Of a DNA stretch of 39,132 nt, positions 18,527-39,132 are shown in pieces. The position numbers and the translations under genes are program-made. The notes beneath the pieces are model-generated. The model saw only the letters and a program-made list of their open reading frames with translations. It ran no database searches and had not been told where the DNA came from. Position 1 is the stretch's first letter. Each line of letters begins with the position of its first letter. Location: assembly GCA_944325935.1 (NCBI GenBank), contig CALVCF010000003.1, forward strand, positions 1-39,132, read 5' to 3'. Origin of the DNA: an uncultured Erysipelotrichaceae bacterium. GTDB lineage: Bacteria > Bacillota_I > Bacilli_A > Erysipelotrichales > Erysipelotrichaceae.

Positions 18527-19453
18527 ATGAAAGCATATGTAATAGGCGGAGCCAATCTTGATATATTTGCTAAAAGCGAAAGAGAATTGATCCTGTATGA
18601 TTCTAATATCGCTCATTTTAAATTGAGTTTTGGCGGTGTTGGGCGCAATATAGCAGAAAATCTCGTCTATCTGATCGATAATGTCGAACTAGTTACGCGT
18701 TTTGCCAAAGACCATTTTGCCAAGATCTTGTATGATGATTGCCTTTTAAAGGGCATCAAGTTAGATCACGCTTTGAAGAGCGAAGATTTTGCTACTTCGA
18801 TGTATATCGCTATATTAGATGCCAATAATGATATGCAGTTAGGCTTAAATGATATGGGCATCATTGAAACATTAAAATATGATGACATTGCCTTTTTAAA
18901 GGATATAATTAAAGATGATGACCTCCTGGTTATCGATACTAATCTCGCTTCAAAGACTTTGACAATGATTTTAGATGAATTTAAGGGCTTCAAGGTCGTT
19001 GATGCGATCAGCGTCAATAAGGTTGCAAGATTAAAAGGTAACTTAGCAAAGATCGATCTTTTAAAATGCAACAAGTTTGAGGTGGAAAGTTTATTTGAAG
19101 TACAGCTTAATGATCTAGCAATTTTAAAAAAGATTCTCAAAGATACTGCTGTGCCAAAAGAATTAGTCATCACCGACAAAGAAGGAGCTTTTGTCTATCG
19201 TGAAGGTCATCTTTATACTTTTAGGCAGAAAGACCTCGTGGATCAGGTTGTAAATGCTACCGGAGCCGGTGACGCCTTTATCGCGATCTATGCGTATTGT
19301 CGCAAAGAACAAATGAGTATAAGCAAGAGTGTTAAATTAGCTTTGTCAGCTTCACGCTTGACGATCAAAAGTCCATCCAGCGTTGTCTATAAGGACCGAT
19401 CGATGTTAGAAAAGGAAGCTTCAAAGTTTGAATTAATAGAAGGAGAGATTTAA
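18527..19453 (+). CDS. psuK: Pseudouridine kinase (PfkB family)
   Basis: A 308-residue ribokinase-like enzyme. It starts with AYVIGGANLDIFAKS, shows the N-terminal PfkB signature as FGGVGRNIAENL, and ends with the C-terminal signature NATGAGDAFIA, whose Asp is the catalytic base, near residue 247. PfkB alone does not define the substrate, but psuG follows after one base with its ribosome site inside the psuK end, so pseudouridine is the likely substrate: PsuK makes pseudouridine 5'-phosphate, which PsuG splits. There is no ribosome site; the ATG lies 6 bases after a -10 box. Confidence 0.92.
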   Translation: MKAYVIGGANLDIFAKSERELILYDSNIAHFKLSFGGVGRNIAENLVYLIDNVELVTRFAKDHFAKILYDDCLLKGIKLDHALKSEDFATSMYIAILDANNDMQLGLNDMGIIETLKYDDIAFLKDIIKDDDLLVIDTNLASKTLTMILDEFKGFKVVDAISVNKVARLKGNLAKIDLLKCNKFEVESLFEVQLNDLAILKKILKDTAVPKELVITDKEGAFVYREGHLYTFRQKDLVDQVVNATGAGDAFIAIYAYCRKEQMSISKSVKLALSASRLTIKSPSSVVYKDRSMLEKEASKFELIEGEI

Positions 19454-20360: not shown

Positions 20361-20830
20361 GAAGAAGTGAAGTCTGTTTAAATGCTTTAAATAGGCGCGG
20401 AGTCTATCTTGAGGATCTTGTCGAATGTGCTCGCTTCTTGCATGGGCCGTATGAAGATATCAAAGATACGACGATCGCAGCCGTTCTTATTGATATTCTC
20501 GATAAAAGAGAAGTAGAGAATGCCTTGCTTTGTGCGATCGAAATGGATGAGCTTTGTGAAAAAGACCAGTATAGCGATAAATCGTTGCAGGAAAGAGTCT
20601 TGCACGATGATGGCTTGTTTGGGGTCGATGAAGTTTTGGCCTATGGCATCTGCAATATTTATGGCTCGATCGCTTTGACCAATTTCGGTTATATCGATAA
20701 GATCAAACCAGGGATCATCGGTAAGCTCAATGAAAAAAAGGAAGGGGTCTGTAATACCTTCTTAGATGATATCGTAGGGGCAATCGCTGCTTCGGCAGCT
20801 AGTAGGATGGCACATGAAAAAGGAAGTTAA
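20357..20830 (+). CDS. Phosphatidylglycerophosphatase A-like protein (YutG type)
   Basis: A 157-residue protein of the PgpA fold as found in Firmicute YutG. It shows the REVENALLCAIEMDEL helix, DDGLFGVDEVLAYGICNIYGSIALTNFGYIDK, and KPGIIGKLNEKKEGVCNTFLDDIVGAIAASAASRMAH, where the acidic DD/ND patterns would bind metal. PgpA removes the phosphate of phosphatidylglycerophosphate, but the Firmicute members lack strong membrane helices and their true substrate is less certain. The gene overlaps psuG by 4 bases and the next gene by 17, so it is part of the psu operon; a link with pseudouridine is not obvious. Confidence 0.88.
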   Translation: MRRSEVCLNALNRRGVYLEDLVECARFLHGPYEDIKDTTIAAVLIDILDKREVENALLCAIEMDELCEKDQYSDKSLQERVLHDDGLFGVDEVLAYGICNIYGSIALTNFGYIDKIKPGIIGKLNEKKEGVCNTFLDDIVGAIAASAASRMAHEKGS

Positions 20831-21593
20831 TGATATCGTAAATAAAGACGACCTCATCAAGTGCTTTAAGATCTTGGGGGTCGAAAGTTCGATGGTCGTT
20901 TTGGCTCATGTGGCGATGTCGAAGATCGGCTATATCGTCGGAGGAGCCCAAACCTTTAATGATGCGCTCTTAGAGGTCTTGGACTACAATGGGACGCTGA
21001 TCATGCCTATGCAGATGTCCGAAAATTCCGAGCCAGCCTATTTCAAAGCGCCACGCATCAAGATCAAGGATTATCAAAAATATCGCGAGTCCTATCCTGA
21101 TTTTGATGAACATTTATCCGAGACGCGCGGTATGTCAAAGGTCGTCGATAATTTAAGAAGAAGAGAGCGTTCTATTTCTTCAAGGCATCCATCTTGTGCT
21201 TTTGTCGGCGTAGGCAAGTATGCCAAGATCATCTTAGATGAACAAAAGCTTGATTTTGCTTTAGATGACAAGTCGCCTTTAGGTCGTCTATATGATCTTC
21301 GATCCTATACACTTTTATGCGGGGTCGACTATGACAATATGACAGCCTTGCACCTGGCGGAATATCGTGCAAAGGCCCGGCCGGTCATCTTAAACGGCGC
21401 CAGTTTTGAAGGAAAATGGCAAAAGTATCTGGATCTCGATCTGGATTCAAACGACGGTGCCTTTATGGCGATCGGCAAACGCCTAGAAGACAAGGGGCTT
21501 GTGAAATCCTATTGTTATAATGGTCTTAGTTTTAAATTAGTGCGCAATGATATTGCGATTGATGAAGGGGTTAATTATTTTAAAAGTTTATGA
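20814..21593 (+). CDS. AAC(3)-fold N-acetyltransferase
   Basis: A 259-residue member of the Antibiotic_NAT (aminoglycoside 3-N-acetyltransferase / YokD) superfamily, which transfers acetyl from acetyl-CoA to an amine. Signatures are VVLAHVAMSKIGYIVGGAQTFNDALLEVL near the start, GTLIMPMQMS, SSRHPSCAFVGVGKYAK, the DKSPLGRLYDL segment, and LLCGVDYDNMTALHLAEYRA with the conserved His. YokD-like members are chromosomal and their natural substrates are mostly unknown. Its position in the psu/pgpA operon gives no support for a resistance role. The start overlaps the end of the pgpA-like gene by 17 bases and the end overlaps the next gene by ATGA. Confidence 0.88.
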   Translation: MKKEVNDIVNKDDLIKCFKILGVESSMVVLAHVAMSKIGYIVGGAQTFNDALLEVLDYNGTLIMPMQMSENSEPAYFKAPRIKIKDYQKYRESYPDFDEHLSETRGMSKVVDNLRRRERSISSRHPSCAFVGVGKYAKIILDEQKLDFALDDKSPLGRLYDLRSYTLLCGVDYDNMTALHLAEYRAKARPVILNGASFEGKWQKYLDLDLDSNDGAFMAIGKRLEDKGLVKSYCYNGLSFKLVRNDIAIDEGVNYFKSL

Positions 21594-29974: not shown

Positions 29975-29994
29975 AAAGCGCTTTTAGCGCTTAT
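29973..29994 (-). terminator. Terminator of the minus-strand esterase operon
   Basis: AAGCGC (29976-29981) and GCGCTT (29987-29992) form a 6-bp stem. On the minus strand it is followed by a T-run; the esterase stop codon (29984-29986) lies in the loop. It may also slow transcription from the permease side. Confidence 0.75.
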
Positions 29995-30745
29995 CGAAAG
30001 CTAATTCCTTATACCATACACGGCTTTCTTGATGCCATGCGCTTTCGCTGTGGGTATGATTGGGATAAAGGTGCATATATAGTTTGGCGCGATCGAGAAT
30101 TGCTCGCTGGATCGCCAAAAGCTGCTTGGTATAATTGACAAGAGCGCCCTTGGAATGCACTTCTTTAGATCCATAGCTCAAGTAGATCGCCGTCTCTTTG
30201 ACGATGCGAGCATTTTTGATATCGTGCAAGAGCTGTTTTTCGACATGATAGATGTAAGGCGAAAGAGCCAGACCCTTTGAGAAGATATCGGAGTGGATCG
30301 TCGAACCATATAAGGCCATAAGACCGCCCATCGAACTTCCGCCGATCGCTGTATGTTTACGATCGCTTAATGTTGGATATTTTTGATCGATATAGGGCTT
30401 TAGCTCATCGATGATCCAGTTAAATAATTCTTTGCCGCTGGCTTCAACTCTTCCCCAATTCGGATCATAGAAACTGTATGGTGAGAATTCGCAAAGTCTT
30501 AAATTACCTTCATGATTGCATTCAAGGCCGACGATCATATAAGTCGGCTTTTTTTGATCAAAGAATTCTTTTAAGCCCCAGGATGTACCATAGGTCGCAT
30601 CTTCGTCAAAGAATAAATTATGTCCGTCAAACATATAGAGCACGCCCAAACGCTCGTTATCCTTTAAATTATCGGGAAGATAAATGTGAAGATTACGCTT
30701 GGCGTGATCATAGATCGAGATCTCGATTTCCTCCTTAATGATCAT
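29984..30745 (-). CDS. Alpha/beta-hydrolase esterase (enterochelin esterase/esterase D-like)
   Basis: A 253-residue cytosolic hydrolase of the 'putative esterase' family. The oxyanion segment is VLYMFDGHNLF near residue 36; the nucleophile elbow is GSSMG with Ser138 in AIGGSSMGGLMALYGS; the catalytic His is probably in YPNHTHSESAWHQE near residue 235, and the acid in the LSYGSKEVHSKG region. No signal peptide. TTGGAG precedes its ATG, and only 3 bases separate it from the second esterase gene, so the three minus-strand genes form an operon. Substrates are unknown; relatives cleave esters and siderophore lactones. Confidence 0.9.
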   Translation of the reverse strand: MIIKEEIEISIYDHAKRNLHIYLPDNLKDNERLGVLYMFDGHNLFFDEDATYGTSWGLKEFFDQKKPTYMIVGLECNHEGNLRLCEFSPYSFYDPNWGRVEASGKELFNWIIDELKPYIDQKYPTLSDRKHTAIGGSSMGGLMALYGSTIHSDIFSKGLALSPYIYHVEKQLLHDIKNARIVKETAIYLSYGSKEVHSKGALVNYTKQLLAIQRAILDRAKLYMHLYPNHTHSESAWHQESRVWYKELAFDKR

Positions 30746-30748
30746 ATT

Positions 30749-31501
30749 TTACTCCAAGAAGAAATTGACAAAATAGGCGATCTGCGTGCGCCACCAAGGC
30801 CAGTCGTGGTTGACGTCATAGCCCCAATAATCACACCAGGCAGGAACACCTAGATCTTCAAAGGCGGCCTGAACAATCCTTGTATCGGCGATACTTTCAT
30901 CTTCCCATGCTCCCTGACCCACGCAAACGACGATCTTACTTTGGCGGTAGAGATCAAGGTAAGGGTGATCTTTAGGCATATTGGGCAAATACTCGGTGAT
31001 CGAGTTTTGATAGATGAGGGGATGAATATAGTTTGGGAAGAAATAGGAGGCGTGATAAACGCCGCTTAGGGCAACAACTCCCTTGAAAAGATCCGGTCTT
31101 CGTAAAAAGAAGTTGAGGGCATGTGTTGCACCCATTGAACAGCCGGTCGTATAAACCTCATCATCTCTGCCTGATGACTCATAGTGGATCTTCAAAAGAT
31201 AGGGGTAGAATTCGTCACAAATATAGTGGTAATAAGATTCTTGCCGATTGATGCGCATGTCATAATCCTGACCTTCTAAGCTCCAGGATTCAGCATCGAT
31301 CGAGTCGACACAAAACAGCTGGATCTGGCCGTTGTTGATCTGGCGCGCCAAGGCATCGACCATTCCGAAATTTTCATAATCAAAAAAACGCCCGTTTTGT
31401 GCTGGAAAGACAACAAAAACTTTTCCAGCGTGACCATAGACCTTGAATTCCATGTCTCTGTTCAAGGCGTAAGAAAAATGTTTATAGTAGGTTACCTGCA
31501 T
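30749..31501 (-). CDS. Second esterase of the alpha/beta-hydrolase fold
   Basis: A 250-residue protein of the same superfamily but not a close copy of its neighbour. It shows KVFVVFPAQNGRFFDYENFGMVD near residue 27, the nucleophile elbow GCSMG with Ser122 in YTTGCSMGATHALNFFLRRPDLF, IVVCVGQGAWEDES for the acid loop, and His in GYDVNHDWPWWRTQIAYF near residue 229. No signal peptide. Its start overlaps the end of the ATP-grasp gene by 20 bases. Two different esterases beside one ligase suggest a common substrate, which I cannot name. Confidence 0.87.
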   Translation of the reverse strand: MQVTYYKHFSYALNRDMEFKVYGHAGKVFVVFPAQNGRFFDYENFGMVDALARQINNGQIQLFCVDSIDAESWSLEGQDYDMRINRQESYYHYICDEFYPYLLKIHYESSGRDDEVYTTGCSMGATHALNFFLRRPDLFKGVVALSGVYHASYFFPNYIHPLIYQNSITEYLPNMPKDHPYLDLYRQSKIVVCVGQGAWEDESIADTRIVQAAFEDLGVPAWCDYWGYDVNHDWPWWRTQIAYFVNFFLE

Positions 31502-32693
31502 CGATCTTTTCTCCTGTCATCATTTCTAAGAAGGGGCGGATCTCCTCTTCTTTTTTTGTGCGTATTACGATCATATAGTCGCCCATCGCATCGGCAATTC
31601 CTCTTGGAACCGCCTGATCCATAACGATCTGATCGCGATATTTTTTTCTAACTTCTTCAAGATCATCTTTATACTTATGATCAAAGCGGCGAGCGGCATA
31701 GACGCTGTAATAACGCTTTTGGCTAGAGTCAATATCCGTTGAATCTTTGACGACCATATCCGCCCATATGCGATAGACGTCGATATCGGCTGCATAGTTC
31801 ATCATATCAAGGGTATATCCCCCAGGCGGACGCATATTGACTTCCAAACCAATGATATCACCTTTTTTTGCTAAACCATCAATATCTTTGCGGGCAACAA
31901 AAAATTCCAGGTGAAAGAAACGGGAGCGGGCCGGGAAAGCCTTTACTACAGCACGGCCGGCCTTTTTAAGATCGGCGGGGATCTTTTTTCTAGACCAATA
32001 GATGCAATCGAGCTCTTCGTTGACAATGTTCATGACTTGGCGTGGGAAACAGTGGCTTGTCTCATACAAGATATCGCCTTTAGAATCACAGATCCCATCA
32101 TAACTGACAAGATCGCCATCGATGAATTCTTCCATGATCATCGGGTGGTCAAACTTTTGTTCAAGGAAAAGCGCCAGCTCTTCGTCATTTGTGATCTTAT
32201 GAGTACTTGAGGCGCCCATCCCATCATCAGGTTTGACGACTACCGGATAGCCAACTTTCTTGATGAACGCTCTCACTCCTTTTTCATCGTCAACTAAATG
32301 ATAGCGAGCTGTTTTGACGCCGGCTTTTTGGTAGCACTCCTTCATCATTGACTTGTAACGAATATACTTGATCTGATCTAGTTTGTTACCTGAGTTGATA
32401 TTAAAGTCTTCTCTGAGATGGGCGTCTAACATCAGCCAATACTCGTTATTTGATTCGACAAAGTCGATCCGCCCATGTTTAGCAATAAGATCGGCAACGC
32501 TTCGATAGACACTTTCGTAATCTTCAAGATTTGGAATATAGCGATAGTCATCTAGATGTGCCTTAAGATCATCGTTCAAGCCCTCGTAAGGCGCATCGCC
32601 AATAGCTAGAACCGTGACATCTCTTTCCTTTAAAGCACGCGCAAAATTATAAAAATTAAGCGGGAAATTAGGTGATACCAATAGTACATTCAT
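31482..32693 (-). CDS. ATP-grasp family carboxylate-amine ligase-like protein
   Basis: About 403 residues. The N-terminal pre-ATP domain (MNVLLVSPNFPLNFYNFARAL) is followed by the ATP-grasp core: KVGYPVVVKPDDGMGASSTHKI as the phosphate-binding loop, MIMEEFIDGDLVSYDGICDS, and GLEVNMRPPGGYTLDMMN with the metal-binding Glu and Asn. Family members join a carboxylate to an amine using ATP, or act in carbamoyl phosphate and biotin carboxylase chemistry. The start is ATG 32693 with AGGGGG 7 bases upstream; a GTG at 32714, exactly 6 bases after TATAAT, is an alternative. It leads a three-gene operon with two esterases and has a cre-like site over its promoter. Confidence 0.88.
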   Translation of the reverse strand: MNVLLVSPNFPLNFYNFARALKERDVTVLAIGDAPYEGLNDDLKAHLDDYRYIPNLEDYESVYRSVADLIAKHGRIDFVESNNEYWLMLDAHLREDFNINSGNKLDQIKYIRYKSMMKECYQKAGVKTARYHLVDDEKGVRAFIKKVGYPVVVKPDDGMGASSTHKITNDEELALFLEQKFDHPMIMEEFIDGDLVSYDGICDSKGDILYETSHCFPRQVMNIVNEELDCIYWSRKKIPADLKKAGRAVVKAFPARSRFFHLEFFVARKDIDGLAKKGDIIGLEVNMRPPGGYTLDMMNYAADIDVYRIWADMVVKDSTDIDSSQKRYYSVYAARRFDHKYKDDLEEVRKKYRDQIVMDQAVPRGIADAMGDYMIVIRTKKEEEIRPFLEMMTGEKIDAGNLL

Positions 32694-32720
32694 AGATTTA
32701 CCCCCTATTAACACTTTTCC

Positions 32721-32862: not shown

Positions 32863-35259
32863 ATGGCTTATAACTTTCAAGAAATCGAAAAGAAATGGCA
32901 ACAATTTTGGGAAGAAAACGAGACATTTAAGACAGATGTCTATGATTTTTCCAAGCCGAAATATTATGTCTTAGACATGTTTCCATATCCAAGCGGCGTG
33001 GGCTTACACGCCGGGCACCCCGAGGGCTATACAGCGACTGATATCGTAGCCCGCAAAAAGCGGATGGAGGGTTATAATGTCTTACATCCCATGGGCTATG
33101 ATGCCTTTGGTTTGCCAGCGGAACAATACGCCATTCAAACCGGCAATCATCCCGAGGGCTTTACTAAAGCTAATATCACTACTTTTACCAAGCAATTAAA
33201 GGCCTTAGGCTTTTCTTATGATTGGTCTAAAGAAGTTGTTACTTCCGATCCGGAATATTATAAATGGACTCAATGGATCTTTATCGAACTGTATAAGGCG
33301 GGATTAGCTAAGTGTGTCGAGATGCCAGTCAACTGGTGTGAAGAATTAGGAACTGTCTTGGCAAACGATGAAGTTATTGACGGCAAATCAGAACGCGGGG
33401 GCTATCCGGTCGTTCGTAAAAACATGCGCCAATGGATTATCGATATCCCCAAGTATGCCGAAAGGCTTTTGGCAAATCTTGATGAACTCGATTGGCCTGA
33501 GAGCACCAAGGAAATCCAACGCAATTGGATCGGCAAGTCAACAGGAGCTCAGGTAACTTTTAAGGTCTTAGATCATGACGCATCCTTTGTGGTCTATACT
33601 ACCCGTCCTGATACGCTTTTTGGCGCCACTTATTGTGTCCTGTCACCCGAACATCCTTTGATCGACAAGATCGTCAGCGAAGAACAAAAAGCGGCAGTTA
33701 AAGCTTATCAGAAAGAATGTGCAGCTAAGTCAGAATTAGAGCGGACAGAGCTCAATAAAGACAAGACTGGAGTCTTTGTCGGGGCTTATGCAGTCAATCC
33801 TGTCAACGACAAAGCGATCCCGATCTATATCTCAGATTATGTCTTAATGAGTTATGGGACGGGGGCAATCATGGCGGTTCCGGCCCATGATGAAAGAGAT
33901 TACGCCTTCGCCAAGAAGTTTGATATTCCGATCATTGAGGTCTTAAAGGGTGGAGATATTACCAAAGAAGCCTTTGTGGGCGATGGCATTCATATTAATT
34001 CGGCTTTCTTGGATGGCCTTAATAAAGAAGAAGCGATCCAGAAGATGATCGAGTGGTTAAAAGAAAAAGGGCTAGGTGAACCGCATACCAACTACCGCTT
34101 AAGAGAATGGATCTTTGCGCGTCAAAGATATTGGGGCGAGCCCATTCCTGTCATTCACTATGATGATGGCACGATCGGGGTCTTAGACGAAAAGGATCTT
34201 CCTTTGATCTTACCGATGCTAGATGACTATGGCCCATCTAAAACAGGAGCGCCTTTAGACAAGGCTACGGATTGGGTCAATGTGACTTACCACAATAAAA
34301 AAGGCAAACGCGAAACTTCCACAATGCCAGGCAGTGCTGGTTCCAGCTGGTATTTTTTAAGATACATCGATCCTCATAACGAAGATCGTTTTGCGGACTA
34401 CGAACTTTTGAAACATTGGTTGCCGGTCGATCTCTATGTGGGAGGACCATAACACGCTGTCGGCCATTTATTATATTCGCGGATGTGGAATAATTTCTTA
34501 TACGATAGAGGTTTGGTCCCATATCAAGAACCATTCAAGCGTCTTGTTCATCAAGGCTATATTCTAGGCTCAAATGGTATCAAGATGGGCAAACGTTATC
34601 CGGAATATGTTGTCAATCCTAATGATATCGTTCGCGATTATGGGGCAGATGCCTTAAGGGTTTACGAGATGTTTATGGGACCACTTGAAGCCGATAAGCC
34701 TTGGTCCACTCAAGGGATCGAGGGTACTAAACGCTGGCTTGATCGCGTTTGGCGTCTGTTTATCGAGCTGCCCGAGTATCTAAGTGATGAAAATGATCAT
34801 AGTCTTGACTATGTCTACAATTATACGGTTAAGAAGGTTTCAAATGATATCGATAGTCTTAATCTCAATACTGCTATCGCGCAGATGATGATCTTTATCA
34901 ACGAGTGCTATAAGACCAAGAAAGTATACCGGGAGTATGCGATCGATTTTGTTCAAATGTTTTCTTGTTTCGCACCGCATTTAGGCAATGAGATCTATGA
35001 GCGTCTAACTGGTAAGACAGATCTGGCATATCGTCCTTGGCCCAGTTTTGATGAAGAAAAGATCAAACTTGATGAAACGGAGATCGTTGTACAGATCAAC
35101 GGGAAGGTTCGTGCAAAATTCATGGCTCAAAGCGGACTTGATGACGATAAGTTATACGAGTTGGCTTTAGCACAAGAGAATATTCAAAAATATTTAGCCG
35201 GACAGACGATCAAAAAACATTTTGTGATCAAATCCAAGATCATCAATATTGTCATCTAG
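32863..35259 (+). pseudogene. leuS: Leucyl-tRNA synthetase gene with one in-frame stop codon
   Basis: Reading through, the frame encodes about 798 residues of a normal bacterial LeuRS that charges tRNA-Leu. The first part has the HIGH-type motif [13 protein letters not shown] near residue 51 and the CP1 editing domain with [12 protein letters not shown]; the second part has KMGKRYPEYVVNP in place of KMSKS, an anticodon-binding region and a C-terminal VQINGKVRAKF. Codon 530 (34450-34452) is TAA within GGP-stop-HAVGHLLYSRMW, where LeuRS enzymes have Glu; GAA to TAA needs one base change. Nothing else is damaged and the frame is kept. The second half begins at ATG 34483 without a ribosome site. 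LeuRS is normally essential, so a sequencing error, a recent mutation, or a second copy elsewhere are the options. Confidence 0.9.
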
Positions 35260-35262
35260 TTT

Positions 35263-35919
35263 ATGATCAAAGGGATTATTTTCGATCTTGACGGCCTTTT
35301 AGTCGATACCGAAAAGATGTCTTTAAGTATTTATCAAGAATTATTGGCGCCTTATAATCGCCAGCTCGATCACGATGAATACGTAAGACTGTTTTGCGGC
35401 AAGACGGAAAAAGCTAACATTGCTTATATGATCGCGAATTATGACTTGCCTTGGTCACAGGACGAGGGAATTAAGTTAGTCGCCCAAAAAGAAGAAGAAT
35501 ATATTAAAAGAGGGATCGATCTAAAAAAGGGAGCCAAGGAGCTTTTGTGTTATCTTAAACAAAACGGCTATAAGATCGCCCTGGCATCATCGAGTACTAA
35601 AGAACGAGCTTTCTCTCTTTTAAGACAGCAGGGGATCTTAGCGTTTTTTGATACATTTGTTTTAGCAGAAGATGTTAGCAATTCGAAACCTGACCCTGAG
35701 GTATTTTTAAAAGCGCTAGCAAAATTAAAGCTGACAAATGAGGAAGCATTAGTTTTGGAAGATAGTGAAAATGGGGTTTTAGCTGGTCACAGGGCTAAGA
35801 TTAAAGTTTTGTGCATACCTGACATGAAACTGCCGGCTAAAGACATCTTAACTTTAGCGACAAAGACTTATTCGACGCTTTTAGATGTCATCGATTATTT
35901 AGAAGAGAATAATAACTGA
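35263..35919 (+). CDS. HAD-superfamily phosphatase, beta-phosphoglucomutase-like
   Basis: A 218-residue hydrolase of HAD subfamily IA. Motif I is IIFDLDGLLVDTE with the nucleophile Asp9 and Asp11; the helical cap follows (residues 16-80); motif II is ALASSS; motif III Lys is in SKPDPEVFLKAL; motif IV is VLEDSENGVLAGHRA. The substrate is probably a small phosphorylated sugar or nucleotide, but not defined by sequence. It starts 3 bases after leuS, without a clear ribosome site of its own, so it would be co-transcribed with leuS and perhaps translated by coupling. Confidence 0.92.
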   Translation: MIKGIIFDLDGLLVDTEKMSLSIYQELLAPYNRQLDHDEYVRLFCGKTEKANIAYMIANYDLPWSQDEGIKLVAQKEEEYIKRGIDLKKGAKELLCYLKQNGYKIALASSSTKERAFSLLRQQGILAFFDTFVLAEDVSNSKPDPEVFLKALAKLKLTNEEALVLEDSENGVLAGHRAKIKVLCIPDMKLPAKDILTLATKTYSTLLDVIDYLEENNN

Positions 35920-35928
35920 AGAGGTCTT

Positions 35929-36420
35929 ATGAAAAAGGCACTGGTATTAGGCTCTCCTGGAGCGGGTAAATCAACCTTTTCCTTAAAGTTGGCCAAGTTA
36001 TCTAAACTGCCGCTTTACCATTTAGATCTTTTATATTGGAACAAAGATAAGACGACTGTTTCGCGGGAAGTTTTAATAAAGCGCATCAAAGCGATCTTAG
36101 AAAGAGATAGTTGGATCATCGACGGCAATTATTTACATACGATGGACTTGCGCTTGAAAGAGGCCGACACTATCTTTTTCTTAGACATACCAAAAGAAGA
36201 GTGTCTTGAAGGCGTTAGAAAGCGCCTTGGCAAGAAAAGAGTCGATATGCCCTGGATCGAAGAAGAATTAGATCCAGAATTCATGGATTACATCAAGGGT
36301 TTCGATACAGGACCGATTTATGATATTTTAAATAAATCTCCTGATAAAAAAATCTATATTTTTAAGTCGCATCAAGAAGCTGATAACTATATCAACAATT
36401 ATTCAAACGCTTTATTATGA
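35929..36420 (+). CDS. P-loop kinase-like protein (FlaR/topology-modulation type)
   Basis: A 163-residue adenylate-kinase-like protein. Walker A is GSPGAGKST at residues 8-16; the IIDGNYLHTMDLRLKEADTIFFLDIP segment holds the Walker B-like acid and is typical of proteins annotated 'DNA topology modulation protein' or FlaR. A lid-like KRLGKKRVDMPW follows. The true substrate of this family is not established and the topology name should not be taken literally. GAGG lies before the ATG; the gene is 9 bases after the HAD gene. Confidence 0.82.
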   Translation: MKKALVLGSPGAGKSTFSLKLAKLSKLPLYHLDLLYWNKDKTTVSREVLIKRIKAILERDSWIIDGNYLHTMDLRLKEADTIFFLDIPKEECLEGVRKRLGKKRVDMPWIEEELDPEFMDYIKGFDTGPIYDILNKSPDKKIYIFKSHQEADNYINNYSNALL

Positions 36421-36493: not shown

Positions 36494-37543
36494 ATGGTTA
36501 TGAACTATAATGTTGATATTTTGGTAGCTGGTTGCAATACTTCTTGCCTGCATTGTTATGTTGATGGCGGCAGAGCTAAGATTATGGAATTTGAAGATTT
36601 TAAAACTTGTCTTGATAAGCTTCAAAAGGTTTTTGAAGTGTTGAAAGATAAAATCAGTTTTACTTTAGACAACGAACTCTATAATCACCCACAATGCTTG
36701 GAAATCTTGGAATATGTGAAAGATCATGCTAAAAATAACTATTTTCATCATGGTTCGACAAGCGGTATTGCCATTATGAGTCAGAGCCGGAAAACCAAGA
36801 TCCTCAAGGTTTTAAAGGATAACGGATGGTTAGAGGCAAGTCTTGCGATCCACGGGTCATATAAAACGCATGATGTGATTGTTTCTAAAAACGGAGCGCT
36901 GACTTCCTTGATAGAAGCCGCCAATTTCTTAAAAGATAATGGTCTGGAAGTCTGGATCTCTTTAATTTTCAATAAGGAAATGTTGAAAGAGTTGGATGAT
37001 ATATCAAAGATCTTGCAAGGGATCAAATACGATCATATCTTGCCAGTTATATGTGACTACCTGCCATTACCAAGACTTAGAAAGTATCAAAGAATCAGGT
37101 GTGATAAAGATGATTATCAAAAGATCATTCCCTTTTTAAAAGCGCAAGGAGTCGATACTGAAGATTTAGAAGAAAAAGTAGCATCTTTTAATGAAGTAAA
37201 TATTATGAGATGTCTTGATTATTCCATGGTCCAAAAAGAGCTTTTGTCTAATGATGCTGCTTTCTTCCATATCGATCATAAACTGGATTTTTATTTGGGG
37301 AATACGGGATCCAGCCTAGGCTATATAGGCAATATTAGAAAACTCAGCACGGATGAAATATTGCAAGCTATCAAATCCAGTAAGGATAATTATTATGAAA
37401 GTACCAAGATCCATTATGCAGATATTTTGAAGGCGGTAAAGGAAAGACACTATCGTTTGTCGCGATATAATTATGTTTATCCCAACTTGATAGCTGGCAT
37501 AATGGCTATGATCGATAACTTTAAAGGAGATATTATATGCTAG
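36494..37543 (+). CDS. Radical SAM protein
   Basis: A 349-residue enzyme. The Cx3Cx2C motif for the [4Fe-4S] cluster is Cys14, Cys18, Cys21 in AGCNTSCLHCYV, which starts the TIM-barrel (about residues 7-210). The C-terminal region looks like a SPASM or twitch remnant (DFYLGNTGSSLGYIGNIRK), but it has lost the cluster cysteines; one Cys remains in IMRCLDYS. The substrate is unknown. ATG 36494 or ATG 36500 may be the start, with a weak GGA site upstream. Its last 7 bases overlap the amidohydrolase gene, so the two are probably coupled and act on the same compound. Confidence 0.88.
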   Translation: MVMNYNVDILVAGCNTSCLHCYVDGGRAKIMEFEDFKTCLDKLQKVFEVLKDKISFTLDNELYNHPQCLEILEYVKDHAKNNYFHHGSTSGIAIMSQSRKTKILKVLKDNGWLEASLAIHGSYKTHDVIVSKNGALTSLIEAANFLKDNGLEVWISLIFNKEMLKELDDISKILQGIKYDHILPVICDYLPLPRLRKYQRIRCDKDDYQKIIPFLKAQGVDTEDLEEKVASFNEVNIMRCLDYSMVQKELLSNDAAFFHIDHKLDFYLGNTGSSLGYIGNIRKLSTDEILQAIKSSKDNYYESTKIHYADILKAVKERHYRLSRYNYVYPNLIAGIMAMIDNFKGDIIC

Positions 37544-38373
37544 CATGGAAAAGTGTTAAAAAGATTGACGGGCATATCCATCTCATTCCCGACGAAGTTC
37601 ATAAGGCCAACTCCGAGGCGCAGGATGTTTTTTCTAAAGCGAAATTAAGATCTTATCTTGAAATCATGGACCGTTATAATATTGAAAAGGCAGTAATCAT
37701 GCCTTTCAATGATCCGGCCTTGTTGTCCATGCAATTCGAGATTTCAAAGGGGCATGAAAATCTGTGGAAGATCCTAAAAGAATATCCTGACCGGTTTTAT
37801 GTCTTTGCTGATATAGATCCATCAAACAAGCCGGAAAAGAGTTTGGATCTGATCAAAGAGGCAATGGAGAATTACGCCTTTAGCGGGATCAAATTTCATC
37901 CTGCAAATTCCGCTATTCCAATCGACAGCAATTACAATGATTTGCTCTTTGAATACGCCTGGGAAAAGAAGATCGGCATCGCTATCCATGCCTACCCTAA
38001 TACAAAAAATGATCTATGCGCCGTTTCGAGGATCCGAAGGGTCTTAAGCAAGTATCCAAAACTCAAGGTGATGGTTTCACATATGGGCTTTTTGGAGTTT
38101 GAAGGGCTCTTAGATCTAGATTGCTATGTTGATATCTCGGCTGTTTTGCCCGATTATGTCAAGCACTTTGGTTTAAAAAAGACCAATGAAATATTAAGGA
38201 GCTTTAGCGTCGATCGCTTGATTTTTGCTAGCGATTGGCCATGTAGCAGGATTATAGATTCTGAAGAAATATATGATGAATATTATAAAATATTAGATTT
38301 TTGCCAGTTTTCTGATCAGGAGATCCACAAGATCGCCTATCAGAATATATTGAATTTTTTAATGGAGAGTTAA
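37537..38373 (+). CDS. Amidohydrolase 2-family metal-dependent hydrolase
   Basis: A 278-residue TIM-barrel protein of the ACMSD/amidohydrolase 2 group, which hydrolyses or decarboxylates with a divalent metal. The HxH ligands are His13 and His15 in KIDGHIHLIPDE; His151 in IAIHAYPN, His182 in VMVSHMG and Asp233 in LIFASDWPCSR complete the site. GIKFHP near residue 115 is typical too. It overlaps the radical SAM gene by 7 bases and lies 2 bases before the methyltransferase gene. The three genes form a likely pathway with unknown product. Confidence 0.9.
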   Translation: MLAWKSVKKIDGHIHLIPDEVHKANSEAQDVFSKAKLRSYLEIMDRYNIEKAVIMPFNDPALLSMQFEISKGHENLWKILKEYPDRFYVFADIDPSNKPEKSLDLIKEAMENYAFSGIKFHPANSAIPIDSNYNDLLFEYAWEKKIGIAIHAYPNTKNDLCAVSRIRRVLSKYPKLKVMVSHMGFLEFEGLLDLDCYVDISAVLPDYVKHFGLKKTNEILRSFSVDRLIFASDWPCSRIIDSEEIYDEYYKILDFCQFSDQEIHKIAYQNILNFLMES

Positions 38374-38375
38374 AC

Positions 38376-39122
38376 ATGAATTATCAAAAGCAGAATTCCA
38401 AGATCATTGATGCTTGGTGTAAAGATGGATGGAAATGGGGTCAAATGATCGATCATGAGACCTTTATGAGAGCTTCAAAAGGGGATTGGGAAGTTTATCT
38501 GACCCCGACTAAATTCGTTCCTAAGGCCTGGTTTGGCGATCTAAAGGATAAAAAGATTTTAGGTCTGGCCAGTGGCGGCGGGCAGCAGATGGCAATCTTT
38601 AGTGCCTTAGGGGCAAAATGCACGCTTTTAGATTATTCCAGGGAACAATGCGACAGCGATCGTCTTGTTGCTGAAAGAGAAGGTTATACGATTGAAGTAT
38701 ACGAAGAAGATATGACCAAGCCTTTCCCTTTTGGCGATAACAGTTTCGATCTTATTTTTCATCCTATTTCTAATTGTTATGTAAAGGAAGTTGTTCCCAT
38801 TTTCAAAGAGTGCTATCGCGTTTTAAAAAAAGGTGGGGTCTTGTTAGGGGGCTATGATCAGGCATTCAATTATCTTTTTGACGATGACGGCCATATCATT
38901 TACGATCTACCTTTCGACCCTCTTAGCAATCAAAGACATTATGAAGATTCCCTCAAAAATGACTGGGGTATCGCTTTTTCACATACTTTAGAAGAAAATA
39001 TCGGCGGTCAATTAAAGGCGGGCTTTAGGATAAGTGATCTATATGAAGATACTAGCGGCGAGGGTTTTTTACATGATCACCATGTCGCGTCTTTTATGGC
39101 GATCAAAAGTATCAAGGAGTAA
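38376..39122 (+). CDS. SAM-dependent methyltransferase (class I)
   Basis: A 248-residue protein with a Rossmann methyltransferase core: ILGLASGGGQQMAIFSALGAKCT is motif I near residue 66, VYEEDMTKPFPFGDNSFDLIF covers motifs II-IV, and ECYRVLKKGGVLLGG is the post-IV strand. The N-terminal cap (DAWCKDGWKWGQMIDHETF) and family length agree with small-molecule methyltransferases. Substrate unknown. It follows the amidohydrolase gene after 2 bases and carries AAGGAG for the next gene in its last codons. Confidence 0.9.
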   Translation: MNYQKQNSKIIDAWCKDGWKWGQMIDHETFMRASKGDWEVYLTPTKFVPKAWFGDLKDKKILGLASGGGQQMAIFSALGAKCTLLDYSREQCDSDRLVAEREGYTIEVYEEDMTKPFPFGDNSFDLIFHPISNCYVKEVVPIFKECYRVLKKGGVLLGGYDQAFNYLFDDDGHIIYDLPFDPLSNQRHYEDSLKNDWGIAFSHTLEENIGGQLKAGFRISDLYEDTSGEGFLHDHHVASFMAIKSIKE

Positions 39123-39124
39123 AA

Positions 39125-39132
39125 ATGCCCAA
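39125..39132 (+). CDS. Start of a further gene (partial, first codons only)
   Basis: ATG at 39125 lies 2 bases after the methyltransferase stop, with AAGGAG (39114-39119) 5 bases upstream. Only Met-Pro can be read before the window ends. It is likely the next gene of the same operon. Confidence 0.45.

Follow-up and report, generated by a model that had tools for sequence, protein, structure and literature searches.

We analyzed a 39,132-bp stretch of DNA (the window), which is the entire contig C3 of a 1.36-Mb draft genome (G000) from an Erysipelotrichaceae-like lineage. Downstream of leuS, its right end contains a HAD hydrolase gene, a gene for a small kinase-like protein, and a string of three enzyme genes followed by the first bases of a fourth gene (Table 1). 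The three enzyme genes encode a radical SAM protein, an amidohydrolase, and a methyltransferase, and they are tightly packed, as the initial annotation had described. The radical SAM and amidohydrolase ORFs overlap by 7 bp. As read from the sequence, the amidohydrolase and methyltransferase genes are separated by 2 bp, as are the methyltransferase gene and the ATG of gene 4 (position 39125); the window ends at 39132. By eye, there is a ribosome-binding-like sequence 5' of each gene. Because of the tight spacing, together with these sequences, the three genes are probably co-transcribed. A promoter scan (18 sites, compared to 10.6 expected) was uninformative.

Table 1. Genes at the right end of the window, with positions in the window.
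Feature	Position	Strand	Basis or remark
HAD/beta-phosphoglucomutase-like hydrolase	35263-35919	+	between leuS and the accessory string
Small P-loop kinase-like protein, 'DNA topology modulation protein' type	35929-36420	+	73 bp 5' of the radical SAM ORF
Radical SAM ORF	36494-37543	+	Pfam PF04055
Amidohydro_2 gene	37537-38373	+	Pfam PF04909
Class I SAM-dependent methyltransferase gene	38376-39122	+	Pfam PF08241; relative of PDB 8k76
Truncated gene 4	39125-39132	+	first 8 bases, ATGCCCAA; remainder cut by the contig end

The kinase-like protein has a counterpart near the same locus in a second genome of the same genus (G001, referred to here as the congener), and the HAD hydrolase is absent from the corresponding place there. 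The leuS of the window has an in-frame TAA at 34450-34452, following VGGP; the congener has GGPEHAVGHLLYS at this place. This interrupted gene is the sole copy of leuS found in G000 and is 89% identical to that of the congener. Because leuS is normally essential, true loss of the gene is less likely than a strain variant or an error introduced during sequencing or assembly.

The radical SAM protein matched Pfam Radical_SAM at 38.6 bits (cut-off 29.5). It has the CxxxCxxC cluster motif at its N-terminus (C14-x3-C18-x2-C21, with residues counted from position 36494). Of the two possible starts, the ATG at 36500 (the second) is the likelier: it gives MNYNVD, and most orthologues open with M[D/E]YNID. 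We compared the protein to its four orthologues, which are 71% (G001), 40% (G441), 40% (G484), and 43% (G503) identical to it. The only cysteines invariant among the five were C14, C18, C21, and C39. Apart from the three cysteines of the SAM motif, then, only C39 is invariant, and the SPASM-like C-terminus is therefore without auxiliary-cluster cysteines. Both the N-terminal motif and the absence of cluster cysteines from the C-terminus had been noticed in the initial annotation and held up in this comparison. Four blocks were also invariant: LVAGCNTxCxHCYV, FTLDNExYNH, YxHHGSTxGIA, and FYxGNTG. In an alignment with three canonical SPASM relatives (from G723, G711, and G077), the invariant LDNE occupies the position of GGEP, a type of SAM-binding motif that is common in the radical SAM superfamily but not obligatory. 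In the same alignment, the C-terminal region of the window protein keeps the GN element and is missing the cluster cysteines.

No PDB chain matched the radical SAM protein by sequence at E 0.01, and no curated NCBIfam model matched it at cut-off (11 matches, the best at 33.4 of 450 bits). We used a structure model made from 8 sequences (pLDDT 82.2), which superseded a first model made from 3 sequences (pLDDT 60). By its fold matches, this model has a SPASM-like fold over nearly its full length, with CxxxCxxC in a partial TIM barrel. Matches included SkfB (6efn; Z 16.4, rmsd 4.4, 258 residues), anSMEcpe (4k37; Z 15.7, rmsd 4.6, 280 residues), ChlB (9gm3), SuiB (5v1s), and MoaA (1tv7), with Z of 16.4-14.1 and rmsd of 4.0-4.8 over 258-281 residues for the five. 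The protein shares the N-terminal CxxxCxxC and the GN element of the SPASM region with the SPASM/twitch enzymes. In contrast to those enzymes, to which it is 8-16% identical, it is without conserved auxiliary-cluster cysteines and has LDNE in place of GGEP. The model also matched viperin (5vsl; Z 13.7) and BlsE (7vob; Z 13.7), at ~11-12% identity. These are radical SAM enzymes with small-molecule substrates, and viperin likewise is not known to have auxiliary cysteines. Based on the model, the protein is predicted to act as a single-cluster radical SAM enzyme of SPASM-like fold, without the auxiliary-cluster feature of SPASM/twitch enzymes. A viperin or other defense role was also considered for this protein and set aside; PADLOC gave no match.

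The fold resembles that of peptide maturases, SkfB, ChlB, and SuiB being among the top matches, and this would fit a RiPP maturation cassette with the amidohydrolase and the methyltransferase as tailoring enzymes. We consider such a cassette highly improbable. The radical SAM protein is without auxiliary clusters, and MoaA, viperin, and BlsE are likewise found among its fold matches. In addition, no precursor-like ORF was recognized beside the gene in ORF lists with lower limits of 50-90 aa. Only 73 bp precede the gene in the window, and in three loci of another genus an ABC-F gene or hflX abuts it.

We found the radical SAM protein in 5 of 272 genomes of the family (G000, G001, G441, G484, and G503), all at E 1e-121 or better, with the next matches at 4e-15 or weaker. 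Two of the five loci are congeneric (G000 and G001; genus g1) and the other three are from one other genus (g73). Weak matches were not counted as orthologues; these were in G723, G711, and G699 (E 1e-13 to 1e-15) and in G077, G038, G022, and G062 (E 4e-12 to 5e-4). The sequences from G723, G711, G077, and G062 have the canonical GGEP. A single-protein search of 395 genomes of the class (a draw) at E 1e-10 and a profile search of 392 genomes of the phylum (a draw that overlaps the first) at E 1e-15 each found the protein in G000 and G441 only. The only match in a scan of assembled genome contigs was a contig of the congener, CALUVF010000081.1. There was no match in plasmids or phages at E 1e-5, and patterns from the alignment gave 91 matches in viral contigs, with no true relatives among them.

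The neighbors of the radical SAM gene were judged on five loci, several comparison loci being cut by contig ends. In the three genomes of genus g73, the gene is directly 3' of an ABC-F gene (G441, L011 6072-8707, 1-bp overlap; G484, L074 8807-11427, 17-bp gap) or directly 3' of hflX (G503, L075 3323-5676, 8-bp gap). ABC-F proteins and HflX are both ribosome-associated, and this arrangement would fit an enzyme related to resistance or translation that modifies an RNA, a translation factor, or an antibiotic directed at the ribosome. Because the three genomes are all of one genus, the arrangement is at most a weak lead. The two ABC-F proteins scored 294 and 300 bits, under the curated cut-off of 380 bits for ribosomal protection. 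Furthermore, neither ABC-F nor HflX is near the radical SAM gene in the two g1 genomes, where proximity to leuS is uninformative. We regard a role of this kind as very unlikely.

The second enzyme of the string matched Pfam Amidohydro_2 at 74.1 bits (cut-off 26.4). The initial annotation had called its metal site complete, and H13, H15, H151, H182, and D234 are indeed all present. The four histidines are invariant in 5 aligned amidohydrolases. D234 is kept in 10 of the 11 family genomes that have the amidohydrolase; the exception is the congener, which has Asn (codon AAT; L008 8939-9775). The window protein shares its family and the HxH...H...H...D pattern with LigW/5-carboxyvanillate decarboxylase (4inf), 2,3-dihydroxybenzoate decarboxylase (7wjr), and the amidohydrolase 3nur, which match it part-length only (residues 69-155 or shorter, E 9e-5 to 0.01). 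The family and the residues suggest that it is a metal-dependent protein of the hydrolase or decarboxylase type.

The amidohydrolase was present in 11 of the 272 family genomes. This count excludes matches with E above 1e-15 and includes G489, where the gene is split over two contigs, and G484, where it is broken by a frameshift (L060 8754-9580; G484:C9:251771-252585) in a genome that is 99% complete and in 9 contigs. Elsewhere, the neighbors of the amidohydrolase gene change, and some loci have no recurring ones. A cytidine deaminase gene is upstream in G007 (180 bits, cut-off 129). In G740 and G744 the gene is among GNAT-like genes (named from reading the sequence). By eye, it is 3' of a nitroreductase-like gene in G457 and has transport genes nearby in G526 and G489. 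The loci in G526 and G698 say little because the contig ends close by (~160 bp upstream in G526 and ~580 bp in G698).

The third enzyme matched Pfam Methyltransf_11 at 63.3 bits (cut-off 21.2). It also matched the SAM-dependent methyltransferase in PDB 8k76 over its full length (E 2.3e-90, window residues 1-247 on 1-249), and we saw no difference in kind between the two. We found no function for 8K76 in open-licence papers. This methyltransferase family is widespread; it was present in 36 of the 272 family genomes, including G000, and in 13 of 60 relatives, same-order genomes included. At none of the 35 places outside G000 was it beside the radical SAM or the amidohydrolase gene (most flanks were 1.5 kb long, and contig ends shortened some of them).

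The congener carries the radical SAM-amidohydrolase locus on a 64,194-bp contig. The order there (L008) is leuS, an MBL-fold gene, the kinase-like gene, a GNAT gene, an HTH gene on the opposite strand, and the genes for the radical SAM protein and the amidohydrolase. Downstream of the amidohydrolase are genes for a 171-aa protein without a family, a nitrilase-type protein (40.3 bits), a GNAT protein, and a kinase-like protein. The congener has no methyltransferase of the window family at E 1e-40. Its 171-aa protein begins MPKLSTHL, and the 8 bases of gene 4 in the window fit an MPK start; the two may be the same gene, with which these bases are compatible. A protein query with the 171-aa protein, run without a positive control inside G000, did not find it elsewhere in G000. 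Our impression was that this protein presumably resembles a zinc-dependent phospholipase C; Pfam and NCBIfam gave no support for this identity. The initial annotation had looked to the genes on the right of the three enzymes for a substrate. As read in the congener, the genes there reveal none.

The counts for all three genes come from one set of 272 family genomes. The initial annotation had taken the three enzymes for a dedicated pathway, and the comparison did not support the three-gene version of that proposal. Relatives of each gene occur mostly in unrelated contexts, which is for the most part the outcome that the initial annotation had named as counting against a shared pathway. The amidohydrolase gene is adjacent in 1 of the 4 other genomes with the radical SAM gene. 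Conversely, the radical SAM gene adjoins it in 1 of the 10 other genomes with the amidohydrolase (G001), and the methyltransferase gene adjoins it in 0 of 10. Among the 272 genomes, none but G000 had all three families adjacent.

What stands of the proposal is a possible pairing of the radical SAM protein with the amidohydrolase. Both are in G000, G001, and G484; that is, 3 genomes are shared between sets of 5 and 11 of 272. This co-occurrence is above chance by a hypergeometric test (0.0005 by genome and 0.012 by genus, uncorrected, not tree-aware, and chosen after the data were seen), and a genuine pair is therefore possible. Only in G000 and G001 do the two genes lie side by side. In both species they overlap, and the proteins are 71% (radical SAM) and 69% (amidohydrolase) identical between the two. 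Both genes are under purifying selection between G000 and G001, with pN of 0.17 for the radical SAM gene and 0.19 for the amidohydrolase gene and pS of 0.73 for both, at which synonymous sites are saturated. These findings would fit a true two-enzyme pathway, in which the amidohydrolase would hydrolyze or decarboxylate the product of a radical modification or rearrangement, and the methyltransferase alone would be incidental. We view this pathway as a candidate, but an unlikely one. In G484, whose amidohydrolase is the frameshifted copy, the two genes are on separate contigs (C7 and C9, of 661 kb and 1.14 Mb). G441 and G503 gave no amidohydrolase match despite having the radical SAM protein, and 8 of the 11 genomes with the amidohydrolase are without the radical SAM protein. 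In addition, the Asn at the conserved D234 is found in the congener, one of the two genomes in which the genes are paired.

Based on the gene identities, order, and spacing, the residues, the patchy distribution, and the changing neighbors, we favor, with a probability of roughly 0.65, the view that all three belong to a variable string of accessory enzyme genes downstream of leuS and do not make up a fixed three-step pathway. Because most relatives of each gene have differing surroundings, a shuffled accessory set fits better than one pathway. In such a string, the radical SAM protein would use a single [4Fe-4S] cluster, as its motif and fold suggest, for 5'-deoxyadenosyl radical chemistry on a small molecule or peptide. 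The amidohydrolase, by its family and residues, would carry out hydrolysis or decarboxylation at the metal site of a TIM barrel. These two may be a two-gene unit in this genus, which the methyltransferase would have joined independently, and the string as a whole may have an accessory or detoxifying role. Since accessory enzyme genes swap neighbors between genomes here, the tight spacing of three enzymes at the contig end is weak evidence of a pathway in this lineage.

The sole unusual part of this string is the radical SAM subfamily. It is rare in the family, has no solved or curated equivalent, is predicted to have one cluster, and has LDNE at the GGEP position. If a substrate were found, the protein would count as a new single-cluster enzyme of SPASM-like fold. 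We found no account of this gene set in the titles and abstract beginnings of open-licence papers. It is conceivable, though quite unlikely, that this rare subfamily, with its cysteine-free SPASM-like domain and LDNE for GGEP, catalyzes an as yet undescribed radical reaction with a small-molecule substrate and that the amidohydrolase hydrolyzes or decarboxylates the product; the two would then make up a new two-enzyme pathway in gut bacteria of this Erysipelotrichaceae-like lineage.

Two other gene runs in the window also contain enzyme genes. One has a gene for an aminoglycoside 3-N-acetyltransferase-like protein (20814-21593; 116.8 bits, under the 270-bit cut-off) in the same run as a pseudouridine kinase-like gene (18527-19453). 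The other, on the minus strand (29984-32714), encodes an ATP-grasp-like protein and then two esterase-like proteins, all named by eye, with a 20-bp overlap and then a spacing of 3 bp. In NCBIfam, the two esterase-like proteins had no match and the ATP-grasp-like protein had a weak carbamoyl-phosphate-synthase-like match.
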